64,000 nucleotides of DNA from Rhodocaloribacter litoris. GTDB taxonomy: Bacteria > Bacteroidota > Rhodothermia > Rhodothermales > ISCAR-4553. Position 1 is the first letter of the stretch. Each line of letters starts with the position of its first letter. Location of the stretch: positions 2,055,782 to 2,119,781 of the forward strand of contig NZ_CP076718.1 of assembly GCF_011682235.2 (NCBI RefSeq), in the 5' to 3' direction. The notes under the pieces were generated by a model. It saw only the letters and a program-made list of their open reading frames with translations. It was not told the origin of the DNA and searched no databases. Made by a program: the position numbers and the translations under genes. Below, piece by piece: positions 10,443 to 46,373 of this stretch.

Positions 10443-10874
10443 CGGGGGTCAGGTAACCTCGGCCGGCAACGGCGTCGACTTCTGGTAGAGCATGTCATAC
10501 GCGAGGTCACGCTCGCCGGGCCACTGAAGCGAACCGTAGACGACGGCCACCTTTCGAAACAATTCGAGATCCCGCAACGCGCGAAAAACCTCAGACTGGA
10601 GGTACGGCTTCAGATCAAACAGACGGCGTTCTCCGTTGGCAAAAGTCAACGTCAAGGTGTAGTCGTCATGCGGCCGGACGGCGACAATTTTCGGGGTCTC
10701 CGGATGCATCCTTCCCTCAATCAATGCGCGTGATCGGGTTGCCTTGTACGGCTTTGTCTTTCGGAGATGTTCGGCATGGTGAAATCGGCCCATTGGCGAG
10801 ATTGCTTTGAAGATAACCTATACCGCCCTGAAATCTGAAGTAGGGCTTGAAGAGGACGAGACGGTGGGGTGACG
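10427..10874. repeat. 18-bp direct repeat bracketing the DUF2442 segment
   Basis: CGAGACGGTGGGGTGACG occurs at 10427-10444, covering the last uvrA codons and stop, and again perfectly at 10857-10874. The 430-bp unit between the repeat starts contains the DUF2442 gene on the opposite strand. The second copy is preceded by GAAGAGGACGAGACGG, similar to the acidic uvrA tail codons. The arrangement looks like insertion of a small gene segment with duplication of the uvrA 3' end. Confidence 0.75.
10449..10709 (-). CDS. DUF2442 domain protein
   Basis: The 86-residue product starts MHPETPKIVAVRPHDDYTLT and contains FANGERRLFDLKPYL, EVFRALRDLELFRKV and VYGSLQWPGERDL, which is the DUF2442 pattern. Members are often encoded beside a DUF4160 gene, and the pair has been proposed as a toxin-antitoxin-like unit; that proposal is from general knowledge. 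Here no intact DUF4160 partner is seen upstream, only ~150 bp without family sequence. The gene is antisense to and immediately after uvrA, inside the 18-bp direct repeat. Confidence 0.85.
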   Translation of the reverse strand: MHPETPKIVAVRPHDDYTLTLTFANGERRLFDLKPYLQSEVFRALRDLELFRKVAVVYGSLQWPGERDLAYDMLYQKSTPLPAEVT

Positions 10875-35855: not shown

Positions 35856-35945
35856 GGAGAGGTGGGTGAGTGGCTGAAACCACCGGTTTGCTAAACCGGC
35901 GTACGTCGAACAGACGTACCGAGGGTTCGAATCCCTCCCTCTCCG
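35856..35945 (+). tRNA. tRNA-Ser(GCU)
   Basis: Acceptor stem GGAGAGG/CCTCTCC, D-arm, anticodon stem CCGGT/ACCGG with loop TTGCTAA (anticodon GCT at 35890-35892), a long variable arm with paired GTACGTC and GACGTAC typical of class II serine tRNA, T-arm GAGGG-TTCGAAT-CCCTC, and discriminator G. 90 nt. CA follows the discriminator but a full CCA is not encoded. The 3' end is the attachment site of the mobile element. Confidence 0.95.
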
Positions 35946-35947
35946 CA
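35934..35947 (+). repeat. attL: core repeat at the tRNA-Ser 3' end
   Basis: CCTCCCTCTCCGCA covers the end of the T-stem, the 3' acceptor strand and the discriminator. Just before it, GGGTTCGA (35923-35930) is also shared with the right end, with three mismatched bases in between. Confidence 0.9.
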
Positions 35948-36002
35948 ACCCTTTATCCAAAAGCCTTGCAAAAACAGGCATTTACGACAATCGACAAAAC
36001 CG

Positions 36003-36029
36003 CCTCCGCAAGGTATCCGCAAGGTTTTT
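36003..36029 (+). repeat. Arm-type direct repeat, left end
   Basis: A 27-bp segment with two TCCGCAAGG words and a T-run matches the right-end copy (45649-45675) at 24 of 27 positions in the same orientation. The position, 56 bp inside attL, suits an integrase or excisionase binding site. Confidence 0.75.
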
Positions 36030-36038
36030 ACCTGCAAA

Positions 36039-36074
36039 ACGGCCGCTCCGGCACCAGCCAGGGCGGCCGTTTTT
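36039..36074 (+). terminator. Terminator-like hairpin at the element's left end
   Basis: ACGGCCG (36039-36045) pairs with CGGCCGT (36064-36070), followed by a T-run. It would now terminate tRNA-Ser transcription after integration. Part of the loop (36042-36068) is repeated exactly at 37604-37630. Confidence 0.65.
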
Positions 36075-36174
36075 GCGTCTCTGCGGGCATACCCCCACCC
36101 CCCCTTGATGTGGATGCGTGTACGTAGTGCCCCCGCGCCGGTCCCCACGGCCAGGTCGCAGAGATTTTACCCCC

Positions 36175-36411
36175 CTACCGGTACACCAGCCAGCGCGGGC
36201 CCTCACACCGCCAGCCGGCCAGCGCCACGATGCGGCATTGCAGAGCCACGTACCGCCCGCCCGCGTTACGCAGGGCCTGGCTCACGGCCCCCTGCGTAAC
36301 ACCCAGGCGCTCGGCCGCCTCTCGTTGCGTCAGTCCGGTACGCTCAAAGGCTTCGCGGGCCAGCGCGTGCAGGCCGGCCTCGTCAAGGATGGTAGGCTTC
36401 TTCTTGGGCAT
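36175..36411 (-). CDS. Small helix-turn-helix regulator
   Basis: The 78-residue protein contains a clear HTH: ERTGLTQREAAERLGVTQGA followed by VSQALRN (about residues 23-50), of XRE or Fis-like type. The rest, RYVALQCRIVALAGWRCEGP, is unfamiliar. It is the last gene of the element's left transcription unit and the closest to attL. It is a good candidate for the repressor acting on the repeated 11-mers in the operon promoter at 37253-37317; this is inference. Confidence 0.75.
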   Translation of the reverse strand: MPKKKPTILDEAGLHALAREAFERTGLTQREAAERLGVTQGAVSQALRNAGGRYVALQCRIVALAGWRCEGPRWLVYR

Positions 36412-36420
36412 CGTCGTTAC

Positions 36421-36780
36421 GGGTTAAGGTGAAGGGGCGGCCGGGAGGACCGGCCGCCCCGCTGTCGTCAGGCATCTTCCCCGGCCGCACGGGCCTTCGT
36501 CTCCAGGCAACGCGTCTCGATCAGCTTCAGCAGGTCGATTGCGGCCCAGATGCGCAGGTGAACCGGATCGGTCTCGGCCTCCTCCGGCTTCATCTTCCCC
36601 CCGAACGTCAGATTCTGAAACAGGACGTCCTCAGCATCGTGCAGGATGACCCGGACCTTCTTCACGTCGAGCAGCAACTCTCCGATGGCGTCTTGCATGA
36701 GCAGCTTAAGCCGTTCAGCGTCTTTCATGGCATACCTCACGGGTTAAGGTGAAGGGGCGGCCGGGAGACCGGCCGCCCCG
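36421..36780. repeat. Duplicated intergenic hairpin unit (two copies)
   Basis: GGGTTAAGGTGAAGGGGCGG then CCGGGAG(G)ACCGGCCGCCCCG occurs at 36421-36461 and 36741-36780, the copies differing by one base. Each contains the stem GGGGCGGCCGG/CCGGCCGCCCC and lies between two genes of the left operon. A similar GGGTTGAGG plus GGCGGTGGCC dyad lies before the first gene (37209-37240). They may adjust expression between the cistrons. Confidence 0.8.
36468..36728 (-). CDS. Hypothetical protein of the integrated element
   Basis: The 86-residue product (MKDAERLKLLMQDAIGELLL) is helical in character, with an N-terminal amphipathic region and RIWAAIDLLKLIETRCLETK near the C-terminus. No family recognised. 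ATG 36728 is chosen because GAGG lies 5-9 nt upstream; a GTG 12 nt earlier is the other option. It sits between two copies of the hairpin unit in the left operon. Confidence 0.65.
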   Translation of the reverse strand: MKDAERLKLLMQDAIGELLLDVKKVRVILHDAEDVLFQNLTFGGKMKPEEAETDPVHLRIWAAIDLLKLIETRCLETKARAAGEDA

Positions 36781-36785
36781 TGTCG

Positions 36786-37190
36786 TTAAAACAACTGGTG
36801 CGCCTCGATGCGGGCTTCCTCCCACGTCAGCGGCTCCACGTGCTCGATGCGCGGCGTGCGCGGGTTGCGCGGCATCGGAGCCCGGTAGGACGCGTTCCGC
36901 GTCCAGTTGCGCGGGCGCGGGCGCGTAGGCCGTTTTACACGGCCCTTCATAACCCGGATGCTCTCGACGCCGTCCAGGTTGACGAAGCGGCGCCCGCCCT
37001 TCTCCACGTCCCAGACCGGGCAGAGCCCGCGGGCGGCCGGGTTGAAGCGAAACCGCTCACGCTCGGCGGCCTCCGGGTTGAAGATGCACACCATACGGCG
37101 ATGCGTGCCGTCGGTGCGCTTGGTGAAGTGGACGACCAGTAACTCGCCCGCGTGGCGGCGGATCGTCTGAAGGACCTCGGTGCGTGTCAT
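36786..37190 (-). CDS. Small beta-barrel-like protein (possible WYL_2/DUF2693 type)
   Basis: The 134-residue protein has LLVVHFTKRTDGTHRRMVCI and CPVWDVEKGGRRFVNLDGVE, a pattern that resembles the small Sm-like SH3 barrel proteins of phages and plasmids (WYL_2, formerly DUF2693). The C-terminal half is basic (RVKRPTRPRPRNWTR) and could bind nucleic acid. The ATG has a strong AAGGAGG 6 nt upstream. It is the first gene behind the TTGACA/TATATT promoter and so probably the most highly transcribed gene in the element. Confidence 0.65.
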   Translation of the reverse strand: MTRTEVLQTIRRHAGELLVVHFTKRTDGTHRRMVCIFNPEAAERERFRFNPAARGLCPVWDVEKGGRRFVNLDGVESIRVMKGRVKRPTRPRPRNWTRNASYRAPMPRNPRTPRIEHVEPLTWEEARIEAHQLF

Positions 37191-37252
37191 GGCAAACCTC
37201 CTTGTTTTGGGTTGAGGATCGGGCGGCGGCCACCGCCCCGTTGACTGATGGT

Positions 37253-37317
37253 AATATAAGCAATTGATATACTCTTGTCAATAGCAAGTGATAATTTTTT
37301 TCCATCAGCAAGCAATT
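37253..37317 (-). promoter_or_regulatory. Near-consensus promoter with three operator-like repeats
   Basis: On the minus strand TTGACA (37276-37281) and TATATT (37253-37258) are separated by exactly 17 bp, a near-perfect sigma-70 promoter reading into the gene at 37190. The 11-mer TATCAATTGCT fills the spacer (37259-37269); TATCACTTGCT lies at 37283-37293 and AATTGCTTGCT at 37307-37317. The three start 24 bp apart, so they lie on nearly the same face of the helix after about 2.3 turns each. Repressor binding in the spacer would block RNA polymerase. Confidence 0.75.
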
Positions 37318-37354
37318 AAAAAACGGGCACCTCCGACACAAGCGAAGGTGCCCG
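37316..37354 (-). terminator. Terminator of the element's right operon
   Basis: On the minus strand CGGGCACCT pairs with AGGTGCCCG (37324-37332 and 37346-37354), followed by TTTTTT and AATT. It ends leftward transcription just before the promoter of the left operon. Confidence 0.85.
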
Positions 37355-37603
37355 ATCCTCAACCCATGCCCCGCCTACGGGTGGCCGCCCGGTCCCGGTA
37401 GGGACACGGCAGGGCAGGAGGGAACACAATATACGCAGACGCCCCGTCCGCGTCACCGTGTCCGCACCCGGGCCCGCAGGCCCCGGCGCACCTCGTCGGG
37501 CGTCAGTCCCTCACCCGGCATCTCACGGGCCTTTTAGCGTGGCATGTGTGGCATTTCAGCAGGTCCACGGCTCCCAATGTTTGCGTGCAAACAGTCACCG
37601 CCA

Positions 37604-37630
37604 GCCGCTCCGGCACCAGCCAGGGCGGCC
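37604..37630 (+). repeat. 27-bp repeat shared with the left-end hairpin
   Basis: Identical to 36042-36068 over 27 bases (starts GCCGCTCCGGCACC, ends GGGCGGCC), in the same orientation, and also followed by a T-rich stretch. The surrounding 37366-37634 region has no gene that I can support. It may be a duplicated terminator or a scar of recombination. Confidence 0.8.
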
Positions 37631-37634
37631 CGTT

Positions 37635-37946
37635 TTACTTCTGTGCCGGGTCGTCCGCCACCGGCGTCGCCCGCAGCAGCTCGATAGCCTCCCCGGCCAC
37701 CTCGCCGGCGGCAGACCCACCACCGATGCGCCGCGTCTCCATCACCGAGACGTTGCCATGCTTGTCCTGGTAGAGGCGCCGGGTGGTGTCACTGGAACAA
37801 TGTTCCAGTGAGGACCTCAACCGAATGACGGTGGAGTGACTCACCCTGCACCTCCGTGCGATCTCCCGGTCACTCCACCGGCACCACTCCTCGTCCTGGA
37901 GCAACTTCATCACGGCGCGGCGCTTGTCGGCGCCCGTGCGGCGCCT
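37635..37946 (-). pseudogene. Truncated ParB-like/phage HTH protein
   Basis: The frame encodes GADKRRAVMKLLQDEEWCRW then SDREIARRCRVSHSTVIRLR and DKHGNVSVMETRRIG, the C-terminal HTH part of ParB-like nucleases found on phages and plasmids. The conserved GADKRRAV lies upstream of the first good start codons (GTG 37913, ATG 37910), and the upstream frame soon meets a stop near 38000 with no ParB N-terminal domain. So the 5' two-thirds of the gene are missing. A short HTH protein could still be made from 37910. Confidence 0.65.
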
Positions 37947-38031
37947 CCTGGAGGCATGGAACGGGATTGGACAAGAGGGTTTTTTTGACGTCGCACCTCA
38001 CGGGCCATTTTAGCGTGGCATGTGTGGCATG

Positions 38032-38385
38032 TTAGCGGGTATGCGTGCAAACAGTCACCACCCACGGGCGGCTCCTCCGGCGGATCACCTCCACGGGCGG
38101 CGGCGTCTCCGTGTGGCCCTCCGGCGGGTCCGGCCACCGGCAACGGCCACCGCCGGGACGGTGCGGCCAGTCGTGGGCCGCACAGCGGCACACGGGCACC
38201 GTCACGAAGTCGTAGCGGGTGAAGGGTCGGTGCTTGCCGCGTGTGTGCCCCCCGTGGCCGGCGCATAGCTGCTCCGGGTGCCCCCACATGGCCCAGGCGC
38301 GGCATTGCTCCCCGGCCCGCGGGTGGCCCTCCGGGTACACGTGGCGGCAACGTCGCAGGTTTTGTGCTCGTCGTGAGTAGGCCAT
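38032..38385 (-). CDS. Cys/His-rich small protein of the element
   Basis: The 117-residue protein has RRCRHVYPEGHPRAGEQCRA, MWGHPEQLCAGHGGHTRG and VPVCRCAAHDWPH, a Cys/His spacing that suggests one or two zinc sites. The CRAWAMWG-x-PE-LCAGHGG pattern is familiar from small phage-encoded proteins of unknown role. GGAG lies about 10 nt before the ATG. It is between the nuclease-like gene and the ParB remnant. Confidence 0.65.
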   Translation of the reverse strand: MAYSRRAQNLRRCRHVYPEGHPRAGEQCRAWAMWGHPEQLCAGHGGHTRGKHRPFTRYDFVTVPVCRCAAHDWPHRPGGGRCRWPDPPEGHTETPPPVEVIRRRSRPWVVTVCTHTR

Positions 38386-38450
38386 TTTTGCGCTCCCGCT
38401 GGCTCCATTAATCCCAGAAATCCCGGCCACGCTGTGTGAAATTAGTCGCG

Positions 38451-38756
38451 TTATCCGCTCCCGACCCACGCCTTGAAGTCGGCCAGTCGCATTACCACCA
38501 GGTCCTCGTCGTGCCGTCGCCCCCGCTCGTGCAGGACGGCGACGGGTAGTTGATCCTCCCGTGCGGCGGCCTCGGCCTGGCGCATGGCATCCTCGATCCA
38601 GGCGGGCAGGCGGCTCCGGTGCTTGATCTCGATACTCAGCCAGGCGTGCGCCACGTCGGGCGCGTCGCCACGGGCGCGGCCGGTGACGGGCACGCGGCGG
38701 CCATTCAGGCGGGCGGCCACGGCGCGTTCGGTGCGTTTCCACGATTTTTCAGGCAT
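38451..38756 (-). CDS. Putative PD-(D/E)XK nuclease / resolvase-like protein
   Basis: The 101-residue protein reads SWKRTERAVAARLNGRRVPV, then APDVAHAWLSIEIKHRSRLP, then DQLPVAVLHERGRRHDEDLV. The order Glu, then PDV ... EIK, then Gln/Pro-containing helix is that of small PD-(D/E)XK nucleases such as phage Holliday-junction resolvases. ATG 38756 is used; the frame is open for 39 nt upstream. A role in resolving replication intermediates of the element is inference. Confidence 0.65.
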   Translation of the reverse strand: MPEKSWKRTERAVAARLNGRRVPVTGRARGDAPDVAHAWLSIEIKHRSRLPAWIEDAMRQAEAAAREDQLPVAVLHERGRRHDEDLVVMRLADFKAWVGSG

Positions 38757-38803
38757 TTCGAGTTGCTCCGGCCTAAGTGTAACAACTTGCACCAACTTGC
38801 GCG

Positions 38804-39019
38804 TCAGTTTCTCGACAGTCCCCCCTCCAGGGTGATGTCCGGGTCACAGCGGCAGCGCCCGCCCCGCAGGGCAGGGCAGCCGTGGTCATGGCGGACCACC
38901 ACGTCCCAGAGTCCCGGGCCAACGAGCAGTTCGCCGCGCCGGATCATCTCGAGCATCTTGCGGACGTAGGGCGGCACAGGGCCACCCCGCTTGTGCTTCG
39001 AGCGGTGTCGCTCAAACAT
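38804..39019 (-). CDS. Small phage-type protein with a Cys cluster
   Basis: The 71-residue protein ends VVVRHDHGCPALRGGRCRCD then PDITL; the H-D-x2-C-x5-G-x2-C-x-C-x-P pattern is frequent in short phage proteins and suggests a metal site. It overlaps the end of the upstream gene by 8 bp, indicating translational coupling. Function unknown. Confidence 0.65.
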   Translation of the reverse strand: MFERHRSKHKRGGPVPPYVRKMLEMIRRGELLVGPGLWDVVVRHDHGCPALRGGRCRCDPDITLEGGLSRN

Positions 39020-39548
39020 CGGACTCCTCCGTTTGCAGGTAGCGGCGGCTCAGGGCCTCCATCGTCTCCCGGCCGTAAGCCCGGTGCAGCTCGCGCACCA
39101 GGTCGAAGGCCACGTCCAGACTCTGCCCACGGTCGGCCTCCCGCAGGACCTCCGCGATGCTGTGGTAAAACTCGACGGGCTCCTCGACACGCCCCCAGCC
39201 CTCCAGGTCGAACGGCCGGCGCGGCAGGTAGACGCTGGCGTACCAGAACCAGGCGCACAGGAAGCCCTCCTCCAGGTTGCCGCCGAAGGCGTCGTCGAAG
39301 TAGGAGAGCGGCTCGATGCAGGCCCGCCAGCGCTCGGGGTCCGCACCCTCCGGCACGGCGTCCGCCATGAAGGTCAGGATGCGGTCCAGCAGCAGGCGGT
39401 CCCGGAGCAGGTCGCGGTGTCGTCGCAGGGCCGCCAGCACGTCGGGCGGCAGGCGGTCGGCCGGGTCGTAGTAGACGCGGCCGCCCGGCGTGGCCCAGAG
39501 CCGCACGCCCCGCCGTCGAGCCTCGTCAAGGGCCTGTGTCAGTTCCAT
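39012..39548 (-). CDS. Protein with TubC-like N-terminal segment
   Basis: The first ~50 residues (ALDEARRRGVRLWATPGGRV then YYDPADRLPPDVLAALRRHR) resemble the TubC N-terminal docking domain that also appears in many phage and plasmid primase-associated proteins. The remainder is helical and acidic with DDAFGGNLEEGFLCAWFWYA; no family recognised. It is the first gene after the inverted 9-mer array, and its leader lies in that array. Confidence 0.65.
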   Translation of the reverse strand: MELTQALDEARRRGVRLWATPGGRVYYDPADRLPPDVLAALRRHRDLLRDRLLLDRILTFMADAVPEGADPERWRACIEPLSYFDDAFGGNLEEGFLCAWFWYASVYLPRRPFDLEGWGRVEEPVEFYHSIAEVLREADRGQSLDVAFDLVRELHRAYGRETMEALSRRYLQTEESDV

Positions 39549-39579
39549 GTCACACCTCCCGATCAGGGTTAGGACACCG

Positions 39580-39682
39580 TGTCCGCAATGTCCTTAATGT
39601 CCTTAATGTCCTTAACGCACATATCTTGCACATACAATGTAAACGTTTACGGACGTTACGGACATTACGGACACGGCGGACA
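39580..39682. repeat. Inverted arrays of four plus four 9-mers (iteron-like)
   Basis: Four tandem 9-mers, TGTCCGCAA then three TGTCCTTAA, occupy 39580-39615. After a 31-bp AT-rich spacer, four 9-mers in the opposite sense, TTACGGACG, two TTACGGACA and CGGCGGACA, occupy 39647-39682 and end against the primase stop codon. The arms are largely complementary and could form a ~36-bp stem. Next to a primase-polymerase gene, the best reading is a replication origin or initiator-binding site. Confidence 0.85.
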
Positions 39683-41917
39683 TCACAGCGCGGCGGGCCG
39701 CTCGTGGCGCTCGTAGACGCCCCGGCGTGGCGAGTGCAGGAGCCCCTCGGCCTCCAGGCGCTCCAGCCACCGGCGGGCCGTCCGGTCGGTGACACCGGCG
39801 GCCACGGCGGCAGCCTCGTAGTCGCTCGTCTCGAACGTCTCGGGCAGCGTCTCCAGCACGGCCAGGGCCCGGCGGACTACGTCGTCCGCCTCCAGCGTCT
39901 CACGCAGGGCGCGGCTCGCCAGCGCCAGCGTCTGGCGGGCGTAGCTCAGCCCCAGCGTCAGGGCCGCCTCGAACGCCTCCGGCGCCGCCTCGATGCGGTC
40001 GGCCCGGTCCAGGCGGACGCCCCGCGCCGGCGCCTCGATGCAGGTCAGCACGGCGGCGATCCGTACCGTGCTCAGGGCGGCGCGTTTGACGACGGCGGCC
40101 AGCGCGTCGGGAGCCTGTCCGCGGGCGGCGGCCTCGACGACGCGGCCGTGCAGGTCCTCGAAGGCGTCGTCCAGCTTGTCCCACATATCCGGCGTCAGGT
40201 CGAGCCGGAGCGGCATGTCCCGCGTCCTCAGGGCCTCCCATACCTCGGTGAGACACCCCCGCAGGGCCTCCAGGGCGGCCCGCAGGCGCTCGTCGCCCGG
40301 CCGCGGACGCTGCGACACCCAGCGCGGCGGATCGTGGATCGTGGCGATCAGGAAACGGGAGTACAGGCCGTTCTCGACGCCCCCCTCGATCAGGCGATCC
40401 AGCTGTGCGGGCGTGCCGGCCAGGGCCAGGCTCAGCACCACGCGCTCGCAGACGATCAGGCCACCGGATCGCGTCTCCCGGCGGTGCGGCTCGTGGTGGA
40501 ACCCTTTGCGGAGCAGGTGCGAGAACGCCCCCCACTCCTGGCGCAGGGCGGCCGTCAGGGAGTCGGCCTCGCTGGAGAAGAGCAGCACCCCGTCCGGGTT
40601 GTCGGCCAGGGCCCGCGTCAGGGCGGCCTCGCTCGTGCTCTCGCTGGCGACGACGTACTGCATGGGCGGCTCGGGCGGCGGGTCTTCGCCCGTCTCCGAC
40701 GCCTCCCGGCGGCGGCGCTCCCAGTCGGCGCGGGCCTCCTCGCTCGCCCGGCGCAGGCGCTCGTCGATGTCGTCGAGCAGGCGGGCGGCCAGCGTGGCAC
40801 CGCCCTTGCCCGCCCCGGCCGGGCCGACGACCAGGGTCATCAGGGCGGGCGTATGCTCCCGCCCTCCGTAGAGGATCGAGACGCGGCCCAGGGCGGCCGA
40901 TGCGACGGCCAGGGCGGCCGTCAGGAAGGCGGCTCGCTCGCCCTCGGTCCGCAGGTCGTCCAGGGCGGCCCGCAGCGGCGGCGGCAGCAGGTGCCGCACG
41001 TCGGGCAGGACCTCGGGAGATCGCGGCTCCTGCGGGCGCTCAGGCGGCTCAGGCGGCGTCTCGGGCGGCAGGCAGGCGGCCACGTCGTCAGGGCGCGGCA
41101 GGTTTTTGACGACCTCGGCCAGGATCGCGGAGACGGTCGTCTCAGGCTCGTAGCGGACCACAGAGCGGGCGATACGGATCACCTCCTCCTCGTCGAGCGG
41201 CGGGCGGCAGGCGCGGGCGTTGATCCCCAGCAGGGCGGCCTCGATGGCCTCCTGCCCCAGCCCCTGGCGTCGCAGGGCGCCCGCGTGCGCGGCCAATGTG
41301 GCGTTACGCCGCCCCGCCGGGATCGTCTCGTCCTCGCTCCCGGCCGCGGGCGTCGTACGCTCGGGCCGGCGGCGGGCGGCTCCCAGGCGCTCCAGCAGCG
41401 CCGGCGGGCAGGCGGGCGGCGGCTCACCGGGACGCGGGCGGACGATCCACCGGTATGCTCCCTGCTCGGTCCGGCTCGGCGCGGCCACGACGTAGGCCCT
41501 CCCCATACCTCGCAGGTCGAGCCCCGGCAGGGCCCCGGCGCGGGTCGGCAGGTGCAGGTCCTCCGGGACGCTGGCGACGATGTGGCAGCCGCCCCGCGGC
41601 GTCTGCTGGCGCGGTGCGTGGCGCAGGGCCGGGTACTCACCCAGTAGCTCGGTGGCCAGGCGCGGCTCGTCGAGATCGAGCACCAGGATGCCCGGCGGCG
41701 GCAGCACGGCCACGTTGGCGTTCGGGCGATCCTGCCACCACCGCCGGATCGTCTCCGGGTCGGTCGTGGCGTCTCGCAGCCCGTGCGGCACCAGCGGCCC
41801 CAGGGGCGCTTTGCCGCCCGGCTCGCAGGGCAGGACGGGCCAGCCCAGGCGCTCCGCGTAGGCCAGGGCGGCGCGGCCCAGGGCGGGCACGGCGCCGTTG
41901 GTGTGCGTCGTGCTCAT
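39683..41917 (-). CDS. Primase-polymerase / DUF3987 helicase-like replication protein
   Basis: The 744-residue protein has an N-terminal prim-pol domain (about 10-180): WPVLPCEPGGKAPLGPLVPH, the catalytic VLDLDEP, TPRGGCHIV and GLDLRGMGRAYVVAAPS. A primase-C-terminal-like segment follows (GRRNATLAAHAGALRRQGLG). From about 330 comes a DUF3987/P-loop domain with VVGPAGAGKGGATLA and SSEADSLTAALR. The last ~60 residues form a winged-helix-like region (VAAGVTDRTARRWLERLEAE). It should prime and unwind the element's DNA, i.e. autonomous replication after excision. It overlaps the next upstream gene by 4 bp. Confidence 0.9.
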   Translation of the reverse strand: MSTTHTNGAVPALGRAALAYAERLGWPVLPCEPGGKAPLGPLVPHGLRDATTDPETIRRWWQDRPNANVAVLPPPGILVLDLDEPRLATELLGEYPALRHAPRQQTPRGGCHIVASVPEDLHLPTRAGALPGLDLRGMGRAYVVAAPSRTEQGAYRWIVRPRPGEPPPACPPALLERLGAARRRPERTTPAAGSEDETIPAGRRNATLAAHAGALRRQGLGQEAIEAALLGINARACRPPLDEEEVIRIARSVVRYEPETTVSAILAEVVKNLPRPDDVAACLPPETPPEPPERPQEPRSPEVLPDVRHLLPPPLRAALDDLRTEGERAAFLTAALAVASAALGRVSILYGGREHTPALMTLVVGPAGAGKGGATLAARLLDDIDERLRRASEEARADWERRRREASETGEDPPPEPPMQYVVASESTSEAALTRALADNPDGVLLFSSEADSLTAALRQEWGAFSHLLRKGFHHEPHRRETRSGGLIVCERVVLSLALAGTPAQLDRLIEGGVENGLYSRFLIATIHDPPRWVSQRPRPGDERLRAALEALRGCLTEVWEALRTRDMPLRLDLTPDMWDKLDDAFEDLHGRVVEAAARGQAPDALAAVVKRAALSTVRIAAVLTCIEAPARGVRLDRADRIEAAPEAFEAALTLGLSYARQTLALASRALRETLEADDVVRRALAVLETLPETFETSDYEAAAVAAGVTDRTARRWLERLEAEGLLHSPRRGVYERHERPAAL

Positions 41918-42108
41918 GCCGGCACCCTCCCCGCCGTCAGCCGGCGGCGCTTGATCTCACGGGCGAGGATGCGGGCCACGTAGGCGCGGGCGCGGGCCAG
42001 GTCCTCGGCCGTCAGCGGCTCAAACCGGCATCTGGACGCGTCACGCGTCCATCGGCGGCGCTCCGGCGGCAGCATGGGCGGCACCGCCGGGTAGATGCGG
42101 GCGCTCAT
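41914..42108 (-). CDS. Small basic protein between excisionase and primase genes
   Basis: The 64-residue protein contains FEPLTAEDLARARAYVARIL and a basic REIKRRRLTAGR tail; no family recognised. It overlaps both neighbours by 4 bp (ATGA type), so it is translated in a coupled unit with the HTH protein and the primase. Possibly DNA-binding because of its charge. Confidence 0.65.
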   Translation of the reverse strand: MSARIYPAVPPMLPPERRRWTRDASRCRFEPLTAEDLARARAYVARILAREIKRRRLTAGRVPA

Positions 42109-42299
42109 CGCTCCACCTCCGCGCCGTGCTCGATCAGGCGCTCGATGTCGCTGGCGCGGAAGCGCACGGCGCGGCCGATGTGGACGGCCTCGATCACGCC
42201 CCGGCGGCGCAGCTGGTGGAGCGTCGTCCTCCCGATGCGGAGGATGTCGAGGACCTCACGGACCGTGAGGAGCCGGTCCGAAGCGTTGGGCTTTTTCAT
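42105..42299 (-). CDS. Excisionase/AlpA-like helix-turn-helix protein
   Basis: The 64-residue product reads LLTVREVLDILRIGRTTLHQ, then LRRRGVIEAVHIGRAVRFRA and DIERLI, the standard winged HTH_17/AlpA-type fold of excisionases and phage regulators. Located in the integrase operon, it probably directs excision or regulates int, with the TCCGCAAGG arm repeats as possible sites. It overlaps the next gene by 4 bp. Confidence 0.85.
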   Translation of the reverse strand: MKKPNASDRLLTVREVLDILRIGRTTLHQLRRRGVIEAVHIGRAVRFRASDIERLIEHGAEVER

Positions 42300-42912
42300 C
42301 GCAGCAGCGGTTTGGTTCGCGGTTTCGCGTCAAAAACCGCTGCTGGGCATCTCCGTTTTTCTGAAAAACGTTATCCGGATTTTTGGGAGAAGCAGCGCTC
42401 CACTTCACGGAGCAGGTCTTCAGACAGAGTCCGGCGTGAGTAGTAGGCACCGATGCGGCGGAAGATTTCGGACAGGCGCGACTCCAGCCCGCTTCTCGAC
42501 AGCGCCAGCGCCTCGGCCGCTGTAGTCAGGGCCCCTTCCATCCCCGTCTCATTTCCAGCCCCCGCTATGGCCTCACGTACGGCCCGCAACGTCTTGATCA
42601 CCTCTTCCTCAGACAGCGAGGGGCGCCCCGGGCGCAGCATCTCAATGGGCGGCTGTCCGCTGGGCCAGACCAGTTCCCTAACGGCGCGGTTCGCCTTCAC
42701 ATAGTAGCGGACGGTAAAGCCGGCAAAACCTGCCATTAAAAGGGTTCTCCGGATCGGCCCCACCAACTCCTCGGGTATGGCACCATCGCACGAAAACGGA
42801 AGGGGAGTCCCTATATCCAGATCCAACGACAACACCGCCCGAGCCGTCGGCAGCGTGTCATACTTTCCGCAAGCGAGTTTTAGGTGTAGGTCCTTAAAGA
42901 TTTCAAAAGCTA

Positions 42913-44125
42913 GTGCTGCGTCAAGGATCATCTGCCGGGTAGGATAGTAGCTTCAACAGTCGCTCACTCCTGAAGCCACTTCCTGCCATGGCCAAAAAAT
43001 ACTGCGTCACGCTCAATGACAGTGAACGCCAGCACCTCGATGACCTCATTGAGCGGCGTTCAAAAGGTGTCCCGCCGGTCAAACGAGCCTTCATGCTGCT
43101 CAAAGCAGACCAGAGCCAGGGCGCACCGGCCTGGACCGATGAACGCATCGCCGAAAGCTACAACGTCAGTGTCCGAACCGTCGAGCGCTTACGTCGGCGC
43201 TTCGTCGAAGAAGGCTTCGAGGTGGCTCTCTACGGCAAAAAACGCGAACCGGTTAAAGAGAAGATCTTCGACGGGCAGGTCGAGGCTCATCTGGTGGCCC
43301 TGCGCTGTTCAGAGCCGCCGGAAGGCTTTGCCCGGTGGTCGCTCCGCCTTCTGGCTGACCGTATGATCGAACTCGGTTACGTCGAATCGATCTCGCATGA
43401 GAGCGTGCGGCAGTTGCTTAAAAAAACGAACTCAAGCCCTGGCGCGTTAAGTCGTGGGTAATTCCTCAGGCCGATGCCGCCTTCGTCTGCCAGATGGAGC
43501 AAGTGCTCGATGTCTACGCCCGGCCCTACGACCCGCTCCGACCGGTTGTGTGCCTCGACGAAGCGCGCAAGCAACTCATCAGCGAGGTGCGACAGCCCTT
43601 CACGCGTGCCGACGGGGTGCGGCACGTGGATTACGAGTACAAACGCGAAGGGACCCGCACGCTCTATATGCTCTGCGAGCCCCTGGGCGGCTTCCGGAAG
43701 GTGCTCGTCAAGGAGCGTCAGGACCGTTTGACCTGGGCTCGTGTGGTGGCCCACCTCGTCGAAGACCTCTATCCAGACGCCGAGACGATCACGCTGGTTC
43801 AGGACAACCTCTCCGCGCACACCGCCTCGGCGCTCTACGAGGTCTTCGACGCCGAGCGCGCCCGGCGCATCGTGCGCAAGTTGGAGATAGTCTCGACGCC
43901 GGTGCATGGTTCGTGGTTGAACATGGCCGAGATCGAGCTTTCGGTGCTGGTTCGTCAGGGTCTCTGTCGCCGCATCGGCAATGCATCGCAGTTAGAGGGC
44001 GAGATCGCCGCCTGGTACGAGGCGCGCAACGCAAAGCAGCGGGGTGTAGACTGGCAGTTCACGACGGCGGATGCGCGGGTGAAGTTGAAGCGGCTATACC
44101 CGTCAATTATAACTTGACACAGCAC
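42913..44125 (+). mobile_element. IS630-family insertion sequence
   Basis: The ends are GTGCTGCGTCAAG (left) and CTTGACACAGCAC (right), 13-bp inverted repeats with one mismatch, flanked by TA on both sides (42911-42912 and 44126-44127), the TA duplication expected of IS630/Tc1-mariner elements. Length 1213 bp. It carries one frameshifted transposase gene opposite in direction to the gene it disrupts. Confidence 0.93.
42988..44117 (+). CDS. IS630-family transposase, made by -1 frameshift
   Basis: The first frame (42988-43461) encodes an N-terminal HTH region (ADQSQGAPAWTDERIAESYN, VRTVERLRRRFVEEGF). The second frame contains the DDE domain with VVCLDEAR (Asp), LVQDNLSAH (Asp) and NMAEIELS (Glu), ending at 44117. 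A run of seven A at 43420-43426 (GCTTAAAAAAACG) allows a -1 slip that joins them as QLLKKNELKPWRVKSWVIPQ, which matches IS630 proteins across the junction. Programmed frameshifting is therefore more likely than decay. Confidence 0.9.
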
Positions 44126-44459
44126 TAGTTCTAGCTGAAAGACCACTTGTTCCTCCAATTGTCGAACCAGTTCCGAGACTGAGGCAAGACCGGCGCGGGC
44201 CTGTTGCTGCACAACCTCGTCCATTTGGCCGTAGCCGTCGAGTTCTACCGTCGCTCCCCAGCGGAAGGGCTCTTGCATGATGATATGCGCTTCCCCTCGG
44301 TTTATGTGCACCCCCCAGAGGAAGGGTGCTTCTCCCCGCTGCCCCACAGTTCCTTCGGGCGAGTCCGGGCCAAGCCACAGCACGCCCTCGCGCAGAGACA
44401 GAAAGCTCAGTATGCGGCATTCCGCCACCGCTAAAGAAAAAGGAAGTGCATCCATAATC

Positions 44460-45641
44460 TCACATCCCCCTGAAAGCCGCCTCGATGCGGCGGCGGCGGG
44501 CGTCGTCCCAACTCCCGACGTAGCGTTGCAGCGTGTCCAGGTCGGCGTGCGTCAATCCCAGCAGGGCCCCGGTGCCGGCCTCGTGAACCACCGTGGTGAT
44601 GAAGCTTCTCCGGCCGCTGTGCAGACTCAGCACCTGCCACTTCGGCCGCGTCTCGCCGCCGGGCAGGCGGACGGGCGCCTCGATCCCGGCAAGGCGGGCC
44701 ACCTCCTTCAGGTACCGGTTGGCCCGCTGCTCACTGATGCGCGGCACGGGCGTGCGGGCGCCCGCCTCCCGGCGCTCCCGTAGCATCCGCCGGGCGGGCG
44801 ACACCAGCGGCCAGCGGTGAAAGACGTTGGTTTTGTGCTCCCGCAGCAGCCAGACGCCTTCCTCCAGGTCGATCGTCCCCCACGCCGGAGGCTTCATGCC
44901 CTCCTTCAGGTCTGAGACGCGAAGGCCGGTGTAGCAGGCCAGCAGCAGCAGGAAGCGGGCCCGCTCGTAACCCTCGGGCAGGTCCGACAGGTCGGCGCCC
45001 TCGATCGCCTTGATCTCGTGCGGCGTCAGGAACACAGCGTCGCGGCGGCTCTCCGGCAGCGGCGCAACCTCCGGGACCTCCGGGATCAGCCCGCGCCCGT
45101 GCAGCCACTTGAGGAAGTTTTTCGTGTAACTCACGTGGCGGTTGGCCGTCGCGTGCGACAGGCCCGCGTGCTGTGCGAGAAAGGCTTGATAGCGTTCGAG
45201 GAAGGCGCGATCCACCACGGCCACGGTGGCCCCACGCGGCAGGAACGCCTCCAGGTGAAGGCGGATGCGCCGCAGCACCTCCAGGCTCGACGGGCGGACG
45301 CGGACGGCCTTCACCTCCAGCCACTCCTCGAACAGCCCCATCAGGTCGTGCGTCGCCCCTTGAAGGCCCAGGTCCTCCCGGATCGCGCCGGCCACGTCGT
45401 CGAGCGGCAGGCCGTCGAGCAGCAGGGCCTCGGCCCGGTGCTGGATGCGTTCGAGCCGGGCGTTGACCTCGACGGCACCGGGAGCCGATGCGCGAAGGCG
45501 CCCCCGGCGCTTGTTCCAGTCCCGCGGCGCCACACGCAAGGGCAGGTTGATCCACTTCTGCTGTCGCCCCCGCAGCAGGGCCAGACGTACGGTGCAGCGG
45601 CCGTCAGGGCCGGGCCGGTCCAGGTAGTATTTCGCAGCCAT
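44460..45641 (-). CDS. Tyrosine recombinase (integrase) of the element
   Basis: The 393-residue integrase has an N-terminal arm-binding/SAM-like region (RPSSLEVLRRIRLHLEAFLP, SHATANRHVSYTKNFLKWLH) and a C-terminal catalytic domain. Arg is in CYTGLRVSDLKEG, the His-x2-Arg pair in LSLHSGRRSFITT, a His in GLTHADLD and the nucleophile Tyr in LQRYVGSWDD. ATG 45641 is the start; the frame stays open through attR but that part is unrelated. It integrates the element at tRNA-Ser. The arm-type repeat at 45649-45675 lies directly upstream. Confidence 0.93.
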   Translation of the reverse strand: MAAKYYLDRPGPDGRCTVRLALLRGRQQKWINLPLRVAPRDWNKRRGRLRASAPGAVEVNARLERIQHRAEALLLDGLPLDDVAGAIREDLGLQGATHDLMGLFEEWLEVKAVRVRPSSLEVLRRIRLHLEAFLPRGATVAVVDRAFLERYQAFLAQHAGLSHATANRHVSYTKNFLKWLHGRGLIPEVPEVAPLPESRRDAVFLTPHEIKAIEGADLSDLPEGYERARFLLLLACYTGLRVSDLKEGMKPPAWGTIDLEEGVWLLREHKTNVFHRWPLVSPARRMLRERREAGARTPVPRISEQRANRYLKEVARLAGIEAPVRLPGGETRPKWQVLSLHSGRRSFITTVVHEAGTGALLGLTHADLDTLQRYVGSWDDARRRRIEAAFRGM

Positions 45642-45648
45642 CGCAAGG

Positions 45649-45675
45649 CCTCCGCAAGTATTCCGCAAGGTTTTT
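45649..45675 (+). repeat. Arm-type direct repeat, right end
   Basis: Counterpart of 36003-36029, located just upstream of the integrase start and ~115 bp inside attR. An additional CGCAAGG word lies at 45642-45648. Being in the int promoter region, it could also autoregulate the integrase. Confidence 0.75.
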
Positions 45676-45790
45676 CCAGACTTTGACGCACAACGACGCA
45701 CAGGGTTGCACAAAGAAATCGGCTCTAACGCCCTCAAAAACTGTGTTTTGTCGTCCGTCGTTGTTTGCCCTTGTTTGCCGGGTTCGAGAG

Positions 45791-45804
45791 CCTCCCTCTC
45801 CGCA
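45791..45804 (+). repeat. attR: core repeat
   Basis: Perfect copy of the 14-bp attL core, preceded by GGGTTCGA (45780-45787) and three mismatched bases. A terminator hairpin follows 5 bp later, probably the original terminator of tRNA-Ser. Confidence 0.9.
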
Positions 45805-45809
45805 TACAG

Positions 45810-45836
45810 AGCCGGGCCTTCGGTCCGGCTTTTTTG
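45810..45836 (+). terminator. Terminator beyond attR (original tRNA-Ser terminator)
   Basis: AGCCGGGCC pairs with GGTCCGGCT around a TTC(G) loop (45810-45830) and is followed by TTTTTT. In the uninterrupted chromosome this would lie 5 bp after the tRNA-Ser CTCCGCA end. Confidence 0.85.
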
Positions 45837-46373
45837 TTTTGAGACGATTTCTCGATGTTCCGTCTCGCCGGGACGAACATCCGGATCGACCCGAACGTGG
45901 CGAGCCTCCGCCACGCGGCGGTGCACAGCATCCTCTGGCTGCTCGACCGGCTCGTGGAAGAAGCTGTCATCCCGCCTGCAAGGGCGGCCGGCGGCGATCC
46001 GGGCATGACACAGCGTCGTCACGCCACAGGCCGATCTTTCTCTCACTGGTACCGGTCCCCCGCCGGCGAATCCTGGCGAGGTGCGCATCGTAGGAGATCC
46101 AGTTCAGGAAGTCATACGAAAAGCACGTTTCATACCGTTTCAAGATGAGGCCGCGTGTCCGGCCGCATCGTGCGGACCGCGCGGTAAGGTTTCGTCCGAT
46201 CGTGTGCCTGGCTGGTGGCGTTAGGGCTTTACCGCGCCCCACAGGGCCCCGGGCGAACGGAACCGGTATGAAGGACTCGTGGGGCTGTCGTTTCGCGCGA
46301 GCGGGTGCCCGGCGACGTCCTGCGCCCCGCGCGCAGGACCTTTCTCGGCACATTTCAGGGAGAGAAACCCACC
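45837..46373. other. No supported gene
   Basis: About 540 bp between the terminator and the membrane-protein gene. A forward frame from 45855 (MFRLAGTNIRIDPNVASLRH) has somewhat protein-like composition for ~40 codons and then becomes Arg/Ser-rich; it matches no family that I know and may be a remnant. GGAGAG before 46374 is the ribosome site of the next gene. Confidence 0.4.

Follow-up and report, generated by a model that had tools for sequence, protein, structure and literature searches.

The element, its control operon, and two sister elements

The window, the whole stretch of 64,000 nucleotides of Rhodocaloribacter litoris DNA analyzed here, lies in a genome that consists of a single contig of 4.50 Mb and holds an element inserted at a tRNA-Ser gene, with the 14-bp repeat of the tRNA end found again at the far end of the element at 45791-45804 (Table 1). 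The promoter under study reads into a minus-strand operon of three genes, encoding proteins of 134 aa, 90 aa, and 78 aa (the last an HTH protein); the first gene begins with an ATG at 37190 preceded by AAGGAGG. The 134-aa protein gave a weak WYL_2-like (Sm-like barrel) match under the family cut-off and is 89% and 73% identical to its two relatives; its predicted structure (pLDDT 54.9) is too poor for use. At 42988-44117, the window also contains an insertion sequence whose transposase parts, HTH_32 and DDE_3, lie in two frames; it seemingly splits one of the element's minus-strand genes (42371-42931 and 44103-44420). A family search of the genome gave no small-subunit rRNA gene, and since the control was found in 9 of 14 genomes, the gene may have been masked or missed; the genome that gave no match is the single contig and looks complete.

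Table 1. Features of the element and of its control cassette (positions are those of the window)
Feature	Position	Strand	Remarks
Host element	35934..45804	.	tRNA-Ser insertion, 14-bp direct repeat at each end
tRNA-Ser	35856-35946		insertion site of the host element
Operon gene 3, 78-aa HTH protein	36175..36411	-	candidate repressor
Operon gene 2, 90 aa	36468..36740	-	without family match
Operon gene 1, 134 aa	36786..37190	-	conserved in both sister elements
Shine-Dalgarno AAGGAGG of operon gene 1	37197..37203	-	from sequence
Target segment GCCCGAUCCUCAACCCA in operon leader	37208..37224	-	4 nt 5' of AAGGAGG
Leader hairpin	37221..37238	-	loop region UGGCCG complementary to RNA loop CGGCCA (37387-37382)
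Operon promoter	37253..37281	-	-35 TTGACA 37281-37276, 17-nt spacer, -10 TATATT 37258-37253
Operator candidate copy 1 (TATCAATTGCT)	37259..37269	-	inside spacer
Operator candidate copy 2 (TATCACTTGCT)	37283..37293	-	10/11; 24 bp upstream, just upstream of -35
Doubtful third copy (AATTGCTTGCT)	37307..37317	-	not within 2 mismatches
Candidate antisense RNA gene, ~107 nt	37318..37425	-	closing stem around two hairpins, then linker and intrinsic terminator
Intrinsic terminator of RNA, then TTTTTT	37324..37354	-	stem pairs unchanged in three elements
Antisense segment UGGGUUGAGGAUCGGGC	37350..37366	-	one inverted-repeat arm; RNA linker plus terminator base
RNA domain	37368..37415	-	8-bp closing stem, 37415-37408 with 37375-37368
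Inner hairpins of RNA domain	37405-37392 and 37391-37378	-	
CCUCCU at RNA 5' end	37416..37421	-	complementary to Shine-Dalgarno AGGAGG; from cofold and read-through fold
Putative -10 of RNA gene, TATATT	37428..37433	-	
PrimPol/DUF3987 primase	39683-41917		
Excisionase-like HTH protein	42105-42299		
Tyrosine integrase	44460-46088		ORF; true start likely about 45641

Relatives were sought by a protein search of 99 genomes, including that of R. litoris itself, and by searching the DNA of 114 genomes of the order with a 244-bp control block. Two close relatives of the element were found; one lies in the same chromosome at a distance of 38 kb (L016:10974-19162, beyond the end of the window), and the other in Roseithermus sacchariphilus MEBiC09517. 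They adjoin tRNA-Val and tRNA-Leu, with end repeats of 16 and 18 bp, respectively, and in both of them a Toprim/AAA_25 protein replaces the PrimPol, although the Toprim matches are under the family cut-off. What the three elements share is a cassette composed of a small RNA gene, the promoter, and two small genes, located at the tRNA end of the element in all three; the 90-aa gene was not found at the corresponding place in either of the other two elements. Since this cassette is kept beside three tRNAs (Ser, Val, and Leu), with a PrimPol in one element and Toprim/AAA_25 in two, it appears from the sequences to travel as a unit.

The carriers of the cassette come to three loci in two genomes, both in the DNA search of 114 genomes and with an RNA model in 394 genomes. 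Among viral contigs, no relatives were confirmed, plasmids gave no match, and the phage search gave one 34% match, called a WYL domain protein. Six further genomes of the order hold weaker relatives of the HTH protein; the RNA model matched at none of their eight loci, and the loci scanned lacked a 24-bp pair of the 11-mers discussed below. A promoter-like site is present at two of seven such loci, and at one of them (L075), it precedes what we take, by eye, to be a DNA methyltransferase gene. Among the open-access papers listed for Rhodothermus promoters, Rhodocaloribacter, Roseithermus, Rhodothermaeota small RNA, and antisense-RNA satellites, none dealt with the cassette. Two weak protein matches in genome G011 (E values of 3.4e-4 and 7.1e-4) were rejected, their loci having no DNA similarity to the element, and a DNA-search match of 26 nt in genome G087, in a seemingly unrelated gene, was judged to be due to chance.

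Two palindromes accompany the cassette. The first, TGTTTGCNNGCAAACA, occurs once in the window (37578-37593, with 0 expected) and near the cassette in both sisters (L016:12510-12525 in one and L018:9134-9149 and 10601-10616 in the other), and it is possibly another operator or a replication or recombination site. The second, the 21-bp CACTGGAACAATGTTCCAGTG at 37790-37810, has a near-identical copy in the paralogous element (L016:12222-12242), just upstream of the RNA gene, and looks like the operator of a second regulator.

The operon promoter

TTGACA-17-TATATT had been proposed as a near-consensus promoter from the sequence alone, and our analysis confirms this. Located on the minus strand, it matches the consensus at 11 of 12 positions, both of its hexamers are identical in the paralogous element and in the element of R. 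sacchariphilus, and it is the sole site with at least 11 of 12 matches on both strands of 464 kb of sampled genome DNA (20 stretches of 20 kb plus the window), with 0 in each of three shuffles. These observations support the view that a small regulatory operon of the element is driven by a strong promoter here.

The sequence-only reading further held that the promoter follows a foreign grammar in a lineage that normally uses TTG/TAnnTTTG, which is given as the Bacteroides promoter consensus in an excerpt of PMC7366714. Neither half of this claim fits the genome of R. litoris. The pattern TTGACA-N16-18-TATNNT occurs 29 times genome-wide versus 3 times for the backward pattern, while TTTG-N17-21-TAnnTTTG occurs 3 times versus 12 times backward. 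In 221 upstream regions from the genome sample, with genes called by a simple script and the operon promoter excluded, there were eight cases of TTG-N20-21-TAnnTT (four on the opposite strand) versus 1.39 in shuffles, with none of 100 shuffles reaching eight, and seven cases of TAnnTTTG (none on the opposite strand) versus 3.99 in shuffles, an enrichment that is not significant, as 12 of 100 shuffles reached seven. Twenty stretches were taken that hold 21 of the other 27 TTGACA-N16-18-TATNNT sites, and in five of these stretches, a tRNA gene follows a consensus site at a distance of 13-45 nt. Others precede genes presumably encoding ribosomal protein L13 and the succinate dehydrogenase flavoprotein, whose translations were recognized by eye. 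TTGACA and TATAAT-like hexamers 16-18 nt apart, as in sigma-70-type housekeeping promoters, are thus used by host genes, and the Bacteroidetes sigma-ABfr promoter (TAnnTTTG at -7 and TTTG near -33) was neither found at the operon promoter nor enriched genome-wide. The operon promoter is thus an exceptionally close match to a sigma-70-type code that the host itself uses. This indicates that the genome writes its promoters in the ordinary TTGACA/TATnnT code and not in the Bacteroidetes code.

A candidate structured RNA upstream of the promoter

A structured RNA of ~107 nt, with its own -10 box and terminator, appears to be encoded upstream of the promoter. The putative -10 box shows 0 of 6 differences in the three elements, while the 12 nt upstream of it differ at 7 of 12 positions between the window and each relative, and both BLAST alignment blocks with the relatives end at 37434. 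The -35 of the RNA gene is weak (GTGACG, 37456-37451). Since the start of the RNA is placed by inference and the -35 is poor, the RNA could also be processed from an upstream transcript.

The RNAs of the three elements (107-111 nt) fold with z scores of -4.27, -4.81, and -5.05, and in each case, 0 of 200 shuffles folded as well. In a three-row alignment, 98.2% of the cells pair, three pairs being changed on both sides and three on one side, a covariation to be read with the knowledge that it comes from three sequences, two of them alike, and that the tested structure was derived from one of them. The two unpaired cells both lie outside the closing stem and the inner hairpins. A covariance model of the RNA scored 132-139 bits at the three loci, and nothing else exceeded 27.2 bits in 394 genomes of the phylum; compared to these scores, four further matches at 22.8-27.2 bits were judged to be chance. 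When the window stretch and the three loci were searched against Rfam, only tRNA reached the threshold; among the subthreshold matches, one to DUF1874 on the opposite strand scored 30.5 versus the 42 bits required.

Predicted pairing of the RNA with the operon leader

The promoter is flanked by a perfect 17-bp inverted repeat (37208-37224 and 37350-37366) with arms 125 nt apart, and this appears to be so because the linker of the upstream RNA is antisense to the operon leader. Both the repeat and the terminator of the RNA had escaped the sequence-only reading. The antisense segment UGGGUUGAGGAUCGGGC is the exact complement of the target segment GCCCGAUCCUCAACCCA; the former has 0 of 17 differences in both relatives, and the latter is exact in the paralogue and matches at 16 of 17 positions in R. 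sacchariphilus. Between the window and the paralogue, the arms are without differences and therefore show complementarity without covariation. At the Shine-Dalgarno sequence, the leader of the paralogue has UGGAGG opposite CCUCCA in the RNA, which is a matched change, and in R. sacchariphilus, the position beside GGAGG is mismatched with the RNA.

Cofolding of the RNA with the leader gained 19.9, 20.1, and 13.4 kcal/mol in the three elements, with the lowest gain in R. sacchariphilus, and in all three predicted complexes, the stems of the RNA are kept and the CCUCC/Shine-Dalgarno pairing is added. Among 222 leaders taken from the genome sample, the true leader ranked first by the duplex energy of the segment (-36.5, with the next at -25.5) and also by cofold gain, where the margin is small (-19.9, with the next at -18.0). 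The leaders of operon genes 2 and 3 reached -23.1 and -23.9 against the antisense segment, values that only 4 and 3 of the 222 leaders, respectively, equal or beat. These two leaders (36430-36465 and 36740-36790) share a hairpin, GGGGCGGCCGG...CCGGCCGCCCC, followed by TTCACCTTAACCC. The 16-mer CGGCCGCCCCTTCACC was seen, among 52 loci compared, only in the loci of the three elements.

Perfect arms 125 nt apart around a promoter, in an element that encodes a tyrosine recombinase, could also be recombination sites between which a 159-bp segment flips to turn the operon on and off. However, all three loci have the same orientation, one arm is mutated in R. sacchariphilus, the arms coincide with the linker and terminator base of the RNA on one side and, on the other, with the part of the leader next to the Shine-Dalgarno sequence, and the evident sites of the integrase are the direct repeats at the tRNA. 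We find such an invertible promoter very improbable. Practically no credence can be given to a miniature transposon with 17-bp terminal repeats that brought the promoter by chance: the inverted ends do enclose a short AT-rich stretch, but no target duplication is visible next to the arms, the conserved block runs past both of them, to 37434 and into the gene, and exact copies of the arms occur in the genome only at the two cassettes.

The same pairing is also predicted in cis. A read-through transcript of 254 nt folds with a z score of -5.77, and the 17-bp and CCUCC/Shine-Dalgarno helices enclose the terminator and the leader hairpin. Together with the weak -35 of the RNA gene, this would suit an insulator in which the structured RNA and the leader belong to one read-through transcript that hides the ribosome-binding site, with no free RNA acting in trans. 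Such an arrangement has to contend with a terminator with six U residues and an invariant stem between the two halves, at which most transcripts would end before the leader, and with conservation that starts at a -10 box. We consider it unlikely, if by no means negligible, and favor an RNA that ends at its terminator and acts in trans.

The 11-mer repeats and the HTH protein

An 11-mer was previously described as filling the spacer of the promoter exactly, with two more copies upstream at 24-bp steps. The 11-mer does abut the -10 box, but it occupies the last 11 of the 17 spacer nucleotides; likewise, one 10/11 copy lies exactly 24 bp upstream, but the next (37307-37317) has only 7/11 matches to copy 1 and 8/11 to copy 2, and the third match within 2 mismatches lies at 37311-37321, 28 bp away and off the 24-bp step. 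Both sister elements have the 24-bp pair as well, there within 2 mismatches only, and copy 1 reads TAGCAATTGCT in both. The window has three matches within 2 mismatches versus 2.36 expected. When the 84-nt AT-rich block is shuffled, 2.6% of the shuffles contain a pair within 1 mismatch; for the pairs of the other two elements, within 2 mismatches, the figures are 32% and 14%. The 11-mer repeats alone are weak statistical evidence. The motif TANCANTTGCT occurs 7 times in the genome versus 26 times for the backward control, and since 4 of these 7 occurrences are in the two element promoters, it is nearly element specific.

With each of its two relatives in the other elements, the 78-aa HTH protein shares 95% identity, and it matches Pfam HTH_3 and Sigma70_r4 over the cut-off. 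Its model (pLDDT 88.4) has the HTH fold of XRE/HipB-type autorepressors, with a VIA Z score of 8.0 to HicB (6hpb_B; 2.5 A over 64 residues) and 6.2-6.8 to HipB entries; Foldseek gave no match at an E value of <=0.001. The fold is thus predicted to be of the HicB/HipB/XRE kind, with middling Z values. What it shares with the HipB, HicB, and XRE autorepressors is the general fold type; no toxin partner is seen here.

A simple autorepressed promoter, governed by the HTH protein and the 11-mers alone and with the inverted repeat as a by-product of terminator and leader, would be an alternative. The 24-bp pair kept in three elements, the strong conservation of the HTH protein, and the near confinement of the motif to the two element promoters of the genome all agree with it. 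However, the chance frequencies of the 11-mer pairs speak against it, and it leaves the perfect 17-bp complementarity, the compensatory changes in the stems, and the folding z scores unaccounted for; we regard it as improbable.

A proposed two-layer control cassette

Taken as a whole, the site is best explained as a regulated promoter that drives a control operon of two to three genes, with an antisense RNA and an autorepressor forming the switch of a tRNA-integrated element. We give this reading, which is computational throughout and draws on three loci in two genomes, a probability of roughly 0.6. The promoter, the terminator, the complementarity, and their conservation are apparent in the sequence, and the models support the structure of the RNA and the RNA-leader complex.

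In the first layer, the HTH protein of the operon, or another protein of the element, would bind the 24-bp-spaced TATCA-n-TTGCT sites, which overlap the spacer and adjoin the -35, and thereby bring about autorepression. In the second, sequence, folding, and comparison suggest that the ~107-nt RNA is transcribed from the same strand immediately upstream and stops at its terminator before the promoter. Up to 17 nt of its linker would pair with the operon leader while its 5' CCUCC covers the Shine-Dalgarno sequence, so that translation of operon gene 1 would be blocked in trans. In cis, the same pairing would silence a read-through message, and only the dedicated promoter would then yield a translatable one. 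We infer the existence of a discrete RNA, its action in trans as a repressor, and recognition of the 24-bp pair by the HTH protein. The earlier idea that the promoter is the master switch of the element is plausible, but it leaves out the more distinctive part, the layer of antisense RNA.

Since the antisense and target segments are near-identical in the three elements, the RNA from one element should act on the others. The two elements in one chromosome differ in their replication modules and have the same 17-nt segments, antisense as well as target. As a tentative and rather doubtful extension, the cassette may provide an RNA immunity common to different integrative elements, in which a resident RNA silences the control operon of every incoming or coresident element of the group and also reaches the later operon leaders by pairing with their CCUUAACCC-type segments. 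This prediction of cross-immunity is testable, as two copies with the same pairing segments are present in one chromosome.

Comparison with known systems

IstR-1/tisB is a type I toxin-antitoxin system with an antisense RNA. Like there, the small RNA of the cassette neighbors the leader and has a stretch of perfect complementarity to it. In contrast, the putative target here is a 112- to 136-aa protein followed by an HTH protein and not a small hydrophobic toxin, and we see no evidence of a toxin.

The C4 RNA of phages P1 and P7 is a same-strand RNA encoded upstream of its target. An excerpt of PMC5320573 describes it as having a compact three-stem shape, as preventing translation by covering the ribosome-binding site together with an upstream specificity segment, and as being cut from a larger transcript by RNase P. 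As far as that description goes, the cassette RNA is similar in being compact and three-stemmed, in lying upstream on the same strand, and in its predicted pairing with both a ribosome-binding site and a specificity segment. Unlike C4, it would pair through a linker between the stem domain and the terminator, over up to 17 nt, and it has its own terminator and different target genes. The C4 covariance model gave no match up to an E value of 5 in the window stretch or 3 at the three loci.

The CI RNA of P4, in the part of PMC4825925 that treats it, is the antisense immunity RNA of an integrating satellite; it is processed from a primary untranslated transcript, pairs near its own gene, silences functions of the element, and causes premature transcription termination via sequences upstream and downstream. 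The cassette RNA likewise would be an antisense RNA of an integrative element that pairs with sequences near its own gene. It differs from CI, as described there, in that its predicted target is a single leader, with pairing to the Shine-Dalgarno sequence, and in having its own terminator and a separate downstream promoter.

By analogy, the cassette would work like the P1 C4 or P4 CI RNA but belong to neither, since there is no match to the C4 model and it has its own terminator, a separate promoter, and a different target. To our knowledge, the mobile elements known to be under antisense-RNA control are chiefly phages and plasmids of enterobacteria. A cassette of thermophilic Rhodothermales, kept through swaps of both the integration site and the primase, would be an independent solution to the same task.
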